Below are positions 39,911 through 42,441 of a DNA stretch of 52,058 nt, piece by piece. This DNA is from Thermoleophilia bacterium. Its GTDB lineage: Bacteria; Actinomycetota; Thermoleophilia; Gaiellales; Gaiellaceae. The stretch spans positions 1-52,058 of the forward strand of contig JADGPD010000008.1 of assembly GCA_017882615.1 (NCBI GenBank), in the 5' to 3' direction. The notes beneath the pieces were generated by a model. That model saw only the letters and a list, made by a program, of their open reading frames with translations. It searched no databases and had not been told where the DNA came from. Position 1 is the stretch's first letter, and every line of letters begins with the position of its first letter. The position numbers and the translations under genes were made by a program.

Positions 39911-40978
39911 ATGAGCGATCAAGGCGGAGAAGGACAGGTTCCCGAGCCCCCCGGGCTCGAAGGTAGAGGCGAGATGCCGCCGCGCCCAACGGTGCGCGAG
40001 AGCTTCCGCCGCGGCCTCTTCGTTCGCCTGCCGACCGAAGACGATGCCGAAGGGGTCGCCGGATCCGAGCAGGGCCAGGGCATTGCCGACCAGTACCCCG
40101 AGCAGGTCGCCGATCCGTACCCGGGTTGGCGCCAGGCGGCCGACGGCAGCTGGGAAGCCGTGAGCCCGGAGGCCATCGCCTATGTCGAAAGCACCGAGCC
40201 GGCCGCTCCCGAGCCCGCCTATCCCGAGATCGACCAGAGCGCGAACTTCGCCTCGGTCGCCGGTGGAGAGCCGTTCAGCCACGACGAGGCCGCCGCCGAC
40301 GCTCCGGCCTGGACGTTCGCTCCCGAGCAGGATTTCTCTCAAGTCGCCGAAGGAGCGGTCGTCCCTGTGACGCCGCAGCAACCCGAGATCGTGACCGGAG
40401 TAATGCCGGAAGCCCCGCCAGAACCTGTTGCGGAAGTTGCGCCCGAGCCCGCGCTCGACGCGGTGCCCGAGGAAGTGGCCGAGGTCGCGCCTGAGCCGGC
40501 CGAACTCGAGCCCGAGCCGGTGGCTGAGATTGCGCCGGTCGCCGAGCCCGTGCCAGTGGCTGGGATTGCGCCGGTCGCCGAGCCCGTGCCCGAAGCGGCG
40601 GTCGAGCCCGTGACGGAAACCCCGCCCGAGGCGACGGACGAAGCGGCACCGGCCGCGGAGGATTCTGTCGCCGGAACCGGTCTCTACATCCCGAGCGACG
40701 TCGAGCTGCTCGAGGGCGACATGCCCCTCTACGGTGAGAAGGAAAACGTGCCGCCGCGCTTCGCGGGCTCCGGACTCGGAGAGCCTTTCTTCATCGAGTT
40801 CGCCGACTTGGCGCGAACGCTGACCGGCCTGCGCCGCCTGCTCCCGAAGGGAACGCGGCTCACGTACAACTACGACTACGAGCGGGCCTGGGTCAGGACC
40901 TCCGCCGAGATCGATCTTCCCTCCTTCGCCGAGCGCATCGAGGCGCCCGCGGCAGAGGGCGAAACAACGTCGTCCTGA
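39911..40978 (+). CDS. Pro/Glu-rich protein with a C-terminal folded domain, unknown function
   Basis: 355 residues, very acidic. The region YPGWRQAADGSWEAVSPEAI (~75) recalls the DUF2510 W-x-W type. Residues ~95-260 are low-complexity (P, E, V, A), with repeats of the APVAEPVPxAxI type, encoded by a DNA tandem repeat. A conserved-looking C terminus (FFIEFADLARTLTGLRRLLP, GTRLTYNYDYERAWVRTSAE) is the only likely domain. No membrane segment. It may be an extended cytoplasmic or spacer protein. Its stop is about 20 bp from the trp promoter. Confidence 0.6.
   Translation: MSDQGGEGQVPEPPGLEGRGEMPPRPTVRESFRRGLFVRLPTEDDAEGVAGSEQGQGIADQYPEQVADPYPGWRQAADGSWEAVSPEAIAYVESTEPAAPEPAYPEIDQSANFASVAGGEPFSHDEAAADAPAWTFAPEQDFSQVAEGAVVPVTPQQPEIVTGVMPEAPPEPVAEVAPEPALDAVPEEVAEVAPEPAELEPEPVAEIAPVAEPVPVAGIAPVAEPVPEAAVEPVTETPPEATDEAAPAAEDSVAGTGLYIPSDVELLEGDMPLYGEKENVPPRFAGSGLGEPFFIEFADLARTLTGLRRLLPKGTRLTYNYDYERAWVRTSAEIDLPSFAERIEAPAAEGETTSS
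40520..40590 (+). repeat. 36-bp period in-frame tandem repeat
   Basis: Two 35-bp units (40520-40554, 40556-40590) differ at a single position and encode the 12-residue repeat (VA-I-APVAEPVP). It expands the low-complexity section of the Pro/Glu-rich protein. Confidence 0.8.
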
Positions 40979-40998
40979 CGTTCTCGGCAGATTCTTAT

Positions 40999-41028
40999 TT
41001 GACGCAGGGACCTGTCTGGCCGTACTCT
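40999..41028 (+). promoter_or_regulatory. Promoter of the trp operon
   Basis: TTGACG (40999-41004), an 18-nt spacer and TACTCT (41023-41028), 7 nt before the leader-peptide ATG at 41036. The message would start near that ATG, so the leader peptide may be translated leaderless. Confidence 0.55.
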
Positions 41029-41035
41029 CAAGGGG

Positions 41036-41113
41036 ATGACTAACTCGACCCCGCGGATGACTTGGGTGTGGCTCTGGCGCAGCGAGCGGGGCGGGAGCGT
41101 CGCCTGGACCTGA
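41036..41113 (+). CDS. trp operon leader peptide (attenuation)
   Basis: A 25-residue frame with ATG at 41036 and TGA at 41111, too short for ordinary ORF lists. It contains a Trp cluster TWVWLWR (codons at 41063, 41069 and 41075) and a fourth Trp codon (41105) right before the stop. Trp is about 1% of normal proteins, so three of six consecutive codons is striking. It lies between the promoter and an intrinsic terminator, upstream of trpE. Ribosome stalling at the Trp codons when Trp is scarce is the expected sensing step. Confidence 0.85.
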   Translation: MTNSTPRMTWVWLWRSERGGSVAWT

Positions 41114-41139
41114 TCTAGGCGCAAAGCCCGTTTCGCTCG

Positions 41140-41165
41140 AGACCTTCCTCCGGGAGGTCTTTTTT
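41140..41165 (+). terminator. Attenuator terminator of the trp operon
   Basis: Stem AGACCTTCC / GGGAGGTCT (one T-G pair) with a 3-nt loop, followed directly by six T. It lies between the leader-peptide stop and trpE. CGCTC at 41134 can pair with 41083-41088 or with 41095-41099 (GAGCG), which offers competing structures upstream of the terminator; the antiterminator itself is not proven. Confidence 0.8.
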
Positions 41166-41193
41166 GTGCCCTTTTCTCAACTCGACGAAAGCC

Positions 41194-42441
41194 ATGACAC
41201 AGACAAAGAAGATTCCAAGATCAATCGCCTCTGACCTCCTTACGCCGCTCGGCGCCTACCTGCGCCTGCGCGGAGAGGGCAGCGCGTCGTTCTTGCTCGA
41301 GTCGGTGGAGCACGGCCGGCTGGGACGCTATTCGCTGGTCGGCTACGGCTCGCACATCGTCGACTTCGACGAGGCCGAGCGCCTCGGCGAGCCGGTCGTC
41401 GGCTATCTCTCCTACGACTACGTCGCGCGGCTGGAGCCGACGGTCTCCCTGCCCGACCCGGGCCCCGGCGACCCCGAGAGCCAGTTCGTCGTTCCGGAGA
41501 CGCTCGTTCGCTTCGATCATGCCCGCGGCGTCGCCGAGATCGTCTACGGAGACGCCGACGAGACGATCGCTCGCTTGACGGGGCCAAGGCCGGCGATGCC
41601 GAACGGTCGCGGCAAACGGGGCCCACTGCGCCGCTACCCCGACCAGGCGACCTACGAGAGCTGGGTGCGACGCTCGAAGGAGTACATCAAGGCCGGCGAC
41701 GCCTTCCAGATCGTCGTCTCGCAGCGCGCCGAGCGACCCACCTCCGCCAGCGCGCTAGACCTCTACCGGGCGCTCAGGCGGATCAATCCGTCCGAGTACC
41801 TCTTCCTGCTCGAGCTTCCTAACGACCTGGCGCTGGTCGGCTCTTCGCCCGAGACGGTCGTCAAGTGCGAGGGGATCCGCGCCAGCCTCAACCCGATCGC
41901 CGGCTCGATCAAGCCGGGCGAAGGAGACGAGCAGGCGCTGCTCGCTTCCGAGAAGGATCGCGCCGAGCACGTCATGCTCGTCGATCTCGGACGTAACGAC
42001 CTATCGCGCGTCTGTTTGCCCGGGAGCGTTCGGGTCGAGCGCTTCATGCGGCCGGAGCGCTTCTCGCACATTACGCACCTGATCTCCGAGGTGGTCGGCG
42101 AGCTCCAGCCCGGCACGACGCCCTTCGATCTGCTGCGCGCCTGCTTTCCTGCCGGCACCGTATCGGGCGCGCCCAAGGTTCGAGCGATGCAGATCATCTC
42201 CGAGCTGGAGCGCTACCGGCGCGGCGTCTACGCCGGCGCAGTCGGATACTTCGACCCACAGACGTCGTCCTTCGACACCTGCATCGCCATCCGCTCGCTC
42301 GTGCTCTCCGGCGGCGTCGCCCACCTGCAGGCCGGCGCCGGGCTGGTGGCCGACTCCGACCCGACGTCCGAGCACGAGGAGTGCCTGAACAAGCTGGCGG
42401 CCGTCGAGGCCGCGATCGAGCTGGCGGAGGCCGAGCAATGA
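41194..42441 (+). CDS. trpE: Anthranilate synthase component I
   Basis: 415 residues from ATG 41194; a TTG at 41164 inside the terminator T-run would add 10 residues and is unlikely. The enzyme makes anthranilate from chorismate and ammonia supplied by TrpG. The feedback site LLES is in FLLESVEHGRLGRYSLVG. Chorismate-site blocks: ALVGSSPETVVKCEG, LVDLGRNDLSRVCLPGS, HITHLISEVVGEL, CFPAGTVSGAPKVRAMQIIS and YAGAVGYF. Shorter than E. coli TrpE (520) because the N-terminal part between the LLES segment and the core is compact. First structural gene after the attenuator. Confidence 0.95.
   Translation: MTQTKKIPRSIASDLLTPLGAYLRLRGEGSASFLLESVEHGRLGRYSLVGYGSHIVDFDEAERLGEPVVGYLSYDYVARLEPTVSLPDPGPGDPESQFVVPETLVRFDHARGVAEIVYGDADETIARLTGPRPAMPNGRGKRGPLRRYPDQATYESWVRRSKEYIKAGDAFQIVVSQRAERPTSASALDLYRALRRINPSEYLFLLELPNDLALVGSSPETVVKCEGIRASLNPIAGSIKPGEGDEQALLASEKDRAEHVMLVDLGRNDLSRVCLPGSVRVERFMRPERFSHITHLISEVVGELQPGTTPFDLLRACFPAGTVSGAPKVRAMQIISELERYRRGVYAGAVGYFDPQTSSFDTCIAIRSLVLSGGVAHLQAGAGLVADSDPTSEHEECLNKLAAVEAAIELAEAEQ

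Follow-up and report, generated by a model that had tools for sequence, protein, structure and literature searches.

How is the tryptophan (trp) operon controlled in an uncultured order of Thermoleophilia? The locus that raises this question lies in a contig of 52,058 nucleotides (nt) from a soil Thermoleophilia bacterium (GenBank assembly GCA_017882615.1, contig JADGPD010000008.1; host assembly 2.04 megabases), which was analysed over its whole length and is called the window below. A leader open reading frame (ORF) with clustered tryptophan (Trp) codons lies ahead of the trp operon, and an intrinsic terminator is found between the leader and trpE. The original prediction, made from the sequence alone, had recognised in this arrangement the classical anatomy of ribosome-mediated attenuation. 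Our comparison with related genomes suggests that the operon is likely to be controlled by a translation-dependent transcription attenuator that reads Trp codons. The geometry of this attenuator departs from the classical type, as a conserved helix, designated helix A, lies next to the terminator without competing for shared bases. Because helix A adjoins rather than overlaps the terminator, the textbook switch does not explain it. Trp-leader attenuation is strongly backed by order-wide conservation, but an overlapping antiterminator in the stalled state is not. The elements concerned are as follows.

41036 to 41113, + strand: leader ORF (trpL) of 25 codons, predicted to be leaderless from the sequence and from the -10 box spacing in relatives
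41063 to 41077, + strand: Trp codon cluster W-V-W-L-W, read from the sequence; clustered Trp codons are found at the equivalent position in related trpE leaders
41083 to 41095, + strand: 5' strand of helix A, placed by covariation and by its spacing from the last Trp codon
41127 to 41139, + strand: 3' strand of helix A, placed by covariation
41140 to 41165, + strand: intrinsic terminator with a 9-base-pair (bp) stem and six T, directly 3' of helix A, identified by sequence and terminator scan; present in 68 of 68 loci

The leader peptide, MTNSTPRMTWVWLWRSERGGSVAWT, starts at the ATG at 41036 and ends at the TGA at 41111-41113. Its Trp codons at 41063, 41069, 41075 and 41105 correspond to the three clustered codons, and the fourth near the stop, that had been described before. 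An ORF with at least three Trp codons in seven occurs once in the window, with a chance expectation of about 0.18 per strand. The combination of a Trp-cluster ORF with a terminator no more than about 100 nt from its stop was found once in the window and in 0 of 100 simulated strands. The predicted hairpin with its six T was confirmed at 41140-41165, the stem being formed by 41140-41148 and 41152-41160 and the T run by 41160-41165; the terminator scan gives a 10-pair stem (41139-41161), and the helix is thus 9-10 bp long.

The original prediction had proposed comparing the regions upstream of trpE with a covariation test. This comparison revealed the leader with its Trp codons, helix A and the terminator upstream of trpE at 68 loci. 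These belong to three families (f1, f2 and f3) of one Gaiellales-like order and have diverged in sequence. The TrpE relatives are metagenome-assembled genomes, many of them fragmented, labelled Actinomycetota, Thermoleophilia, Gaiella sp. and Candidatus Gaiellasilicea; on these labels the host is probably a Gaiellales-like thermoleophilian. Most close relatives carry the leader motif W-x-W-R-x-E-R-G-G-S and a terminator 5' of trpE, and in f2 and f3 the leader anatomy is kept with a different sequence. A covariance model built from 45 loci was run on 129 genomes of the order and on a 399-genome draw of the class. It matched 85 of the 129 genomes, mostly 5' of trpE, whereas outside the order the class draw gave three weak sites only (L198-L200), taken as chance because they have no leader ORF. 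No leader was found 5' of trpE in the class-level outgroups examined (L128-L131 and L146-L150), nor was there one in L145, a member of family f4.

In the window, helix A pairs 41083-41095 with 41127-41139 over 13 bp, three of which are G-U. It was located in the 68 loci by anchoring on the last Trp codon. In the resulting alignment 91.8% of helix A cells were paired, compared to 26-52% in slid registers. Both sides were changed at 5 of the 13 pairs, and the covariation score was 0.176 compared to 0.111 ± 0.009 after shuffling (0 of 500 shuffles). A register set by hand gave compensatory change in 9 of 12 pairs compared to 3.3 ± 1.1 (0 of 500 shuffles), these counts being of sequences and not of independent events. 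Both strands are nevertheless changed in each of L044 (GTGCGAAGCGGG/CCCGCTTCGCAC), L142 (CAAGCG/CGCTTG), L134 and the f2 and f3 loci. These results show that helix A is under selection. RNAalifold, run on the first alignment, recovered helix A and missed the terminator, since the terminator arms differ between clades.

The compensated loci also bear on a second partner for CGCTC at 41134. The original prediction had noted two pairings for this segment, of which the long one is helix A and proved real; the other, a 5-bp pairing with 41095-41099, is possible but not conserved. As a switch, CGCTC would move from GAGCG at 41084-41088 to GAGCG at 41095-41099 once the ribosome masks the first copy. 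Most loci hold both GAGCG copies and CGCTC, and the move would explain a conserved AGC within the second copy. However, in L044, L134 and L040 the 3' strand has changed with helix A kept and the second copy mismatched, and the alternative pairing makes no contact with the terminator. We consider this switch highly improbable, and it was rejected on the compensated loci, which keep helix A but lose the match to the second copy.

The spacing of these elements is constrained. Counted from the first base of the final Trp codon, helix A begins after 6-11 nt in 67 of 68 loci. The leader stop lies 8-12 codons past that codon, also in 67 of 68, so that a ribosome at the stop, given a generally accepted footprint, could cover helix A. 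The distance between helix A and the start of the terminator stem is -3 to +5 nt in all 68 loci. The two overlap by 1 nt in the window and by 0-3 nt elsewhere. An overlap of 2-3 nt is confined to nine f3 loci, and in many loci the two are separated by 1-5 nt. The abutting position, which had been thought unusual, is a conserved feature. The same spacing argues against control of the terminator by a protein or by Rho, with the leader incidental or serving as a reporter of translation. Energy models that show no switch between the stalled and terminated states would favour such control, but helix A and the stop codon keep fixed distances from the Trp codons in three families, and such codons precede both trpE and trpS, two different genes of Trp metabolism. 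We judge it distinctly improbable.

Trp-rich leaders of the same type, with helix A, were detected by the covariance model 5' of trpS, encoding tryptophanyl-tRNA synthetase, in 17 Gaiellaceae-like genomes (L182-L197 and L201). Some have an abutting terminator, whereas about ten carry helix A but lack a terminator. In these ten or so, the 3' strand of helix A looked able to sequester the Shine-Dalgarno sequence, but folding did not support this. Induction of trpS would be expected under a shortage of charged tRNA-Trp, and the leaders before trpE and trpS may together form a small Trp regulon. The window's own genome (L210) has no such leader before trpS. In this genome and its genus (L210-L214), trpS lacks a Trp leader and has a GATAAT-like box 8-10 nt 5' of its start codon; trpS of this genus is probably leaderless.

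To look for a classical switch, each leader was folded in two states, with all RNA masked as far as a ribosome that either stalls at the last Trp codon or has reached the stop codon; footprint values were generally accepted ones, and the energy models leave out kinetics and protein contacts. An antiterminator that shares terminator bases and forms on stalling was not found, and the same test detected that of Escherichia coli trpL. When the terminator was barred from forming, upstream segments took up its arms to no more than 0.15 in the stalled state; in E. coli trpL, the arm paired upstream at 0.62 when stalled and 0.01 at the stop. Forgoing the terminator was no cheaper on stalling (10.4 kcal/mol stalled compared to 5.9 kcal/mol at the stop in f1), in contrast to 4.7 and 13.9 kcal/mol, respectively, in E. 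coli. With E. coli trpL as the positive control, the classical overlap thus fails here within the energy models. Ribosome-free folds showed additional upstream pairing of the terminator arm, which was discounted, as it would not survive a ribosome translating or stalled on the leader.

The strongest form of the classical scheme has three segments. On stalling, GGGAG(C) at 41093-41098 would pair with CTTCC at 41144-41148 as antiterminator D, and helix A would be the protector formed when no ribosome is present. D can form in the window, its GGGAGC segment is near invariant, and in stalled folds of a few loci (L008, L032 and L040) the terminator arm is mostly paired upstream. Arm swaps, however, showed no coevolution (-8.9 kcal/mol with the locus's own arm, -8.8 after swaps within the family and -13.0 with arms of other families), and the selected inner pairs of helix A would compete with D. 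D was rejected on the arm swaps, and together with the low upstream pairing given above these results make the three-segment scheme unlikely.

Attenuation through the Trp codons is thus preferred, with helix A as the putative ON-state structure, because the spacing of the Trp and stop codons would leave it free during a Trp stall and covered at the stop. The transcript would start at the leader start codon, and a ribosome would read roughly ten codons before it reaches the Trp cluster. A shortage of Trp-tRNA would stall it there; helix A would form directly in front of the ribosome, and the terminator, which begins within a few nt of helix A, would fail. With ample Trp, the ribosome would reach the stop codon and mask helix A on its 5' strand, leaving the terminator alone to form. 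The response would therefore run from low Trp to read-through. Our favoured guess for how the terminator would be prevented is that the stalled ribosome, together with helix A, crowds it. We put forward only tentatively, as a possibility with the odds against it, attenuation without exclusive base pairing: helix A would bring the terminator to within a few nt of the stalled ribosome, and the ribosome itself, packed against RNA polymerase, would block the forming or the action of the terminator hairpin.

Several observations weigh against attenuation by the leader. Masked folding, which the original prediction had proposed, gave no switch between stall and stop, the terminator 5' arm being paired upstream at 0.34 and 0.33, respectively. 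The probability of the terminator is at least 0.9 on stalling in nearly all loci, and the energy models allow helix A and the terminator together. A stall exactly at the last Trp codon would mask 4-5 nt of helix A. Finally, five of about 41 close relatives (L017, L019, L031, L035 and L037) have no leader before trpE.

The start of the transcript can be approached through the promoter, which is listed here with the remaining features.

40999 to 41028, + strand: predicted sigma-70-type promoter, TTGACG, 18 nt, TACTCT, from the sequence; TTG(A/C)C-N16-18-TAnnnT lies ahead of nearly all 43 related leaders
41096 to 41098, + strand: near-invariant AGC 3' of the helix A 5' strand, from the alignment
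41101 to 41123, + strand: hairpin with the leader stop codon in its loop, from the minimum-free-energy fold; many relatives have a hairpin there
41194 to 42441, + strand: trpE, first gene of the operon, by NCBIfam match

The promoter-like boxes had been predicted at the positions confirmed here (-35-like TTGACG at 40999-41004 and -10-like TACTCT at 41023-41028, with an 18-nt spacer). A consensus promoter scan returned 0 hits for this pair, its score being under the threshold, and support comes instead from conservation in relatives. A TAnnnT box lies 6-10 nt 5' of the leader ATG or GTG in 43 of 43 loci checked (7-8 nt in 30), usually with TTGAC 16-18 nt further 5'. The gap in the window is 7 nt, and no Shine-Dalgarno sequence with usable spacing is present; AAGGGG abuts the ATG but is not kept in relatives, and therefore does not represent a conserved ribosome-binding site. 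From the box spacing in all 43 loci the leader is predicted to be leaderless, and the trp transcript would begin at the leader's own start codon. The leaderless start, doubted in the original prediction, thus appears as a conserved feature.

Two segments are near invariant in f1 and have no assigned pairing, AGC at 41096-41098 and the CGC codon at 41078-41080 after the last Trp codon. In the clade with a GGCTCC/GGAGCC terminator (L006, L009, L018, L021, L038 and L087), the trpE ATG is directly 3' of the T run, so the GGAG of the terminator 3' arm may double as the trpE Shine-Dalgarno sequence. NCBIfam matches give the operon order trpE-trpG-trpD-trpCF-trpB-trpA, from 41194 to about 47275. Directly 5' of the trp promoter, 39911-40978 holds an ORF of 355 amino acids with P/E/V/A-rich repeats and no NCBIfam match.

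The window region matched no T-box covariance model, and an Rfam search of 40000-42000 gave no match at E up to 1, hence no Rfam leader family. In the literature searched, which left most subscription papers outside its coverage, nothing was found on leader peptides of Thermoleophilia or on attenuators of Gaiella. Leaderless Trp leaders are already known from Streptomyces; the lineage and geometry seen here were not found described in that literature. These loci would add an uncultured order of Thermoleophilia, a deep class of actinobacteria, to the known range of Trp attenuation, and provide a natural case, over diverged families, of a conserved helix beside a terminator with no base competition. 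If the interpretation is true, ribosome position, as distinct from RNA pairing, becomes directly testable in attenuation.

Among the closest precedents is Streptomyces lividans, in which trpL1 (before trpE) and trpL2 (before trpS) are leaderless Trp-containing leaders and trpL1 has hairpins and a U-rich stretch (PMC8079986). The starts there come from transcript data, whereas here the leaderless start is predicted from -10 box spacing; the S. lividans leader sequence is unrelated (MFAHSTRNWWWTAHPAAH), and its trpE is monocistronic (PMC8079986). Of the actinobacteria that Seliverstov et al. (2005) examined, Corynebacterium and Streptomyces were predicted to have trp-operon attenuators (PMC1262725). 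Conserved complementary triples common to antiterminator and terminator are reported for both genera (PMC1262725) but were not found in the Thermoleophilia leaders. Another close precedent, with adjacent hairpins, is Corynebacterium glutamicum ilvBNC, where the leader begins one nucleotide from the transcript start (PMC11857589). The ilvBNC hairpins share a GCC trinucleotide (PMC11857589), in contrast to the short overlaps and gaps described above, and both the amino acids and the genes concerned differ in ilvBNC. E. coli trpL resembles the window's leader in its Trp codons, the position of its stop codon and a terminator ahead of trpE; it differs in having a Shine-Dalgarno leader and, as the folding control showed, in the overlap of its antiterminator with the terminator 5' arm.
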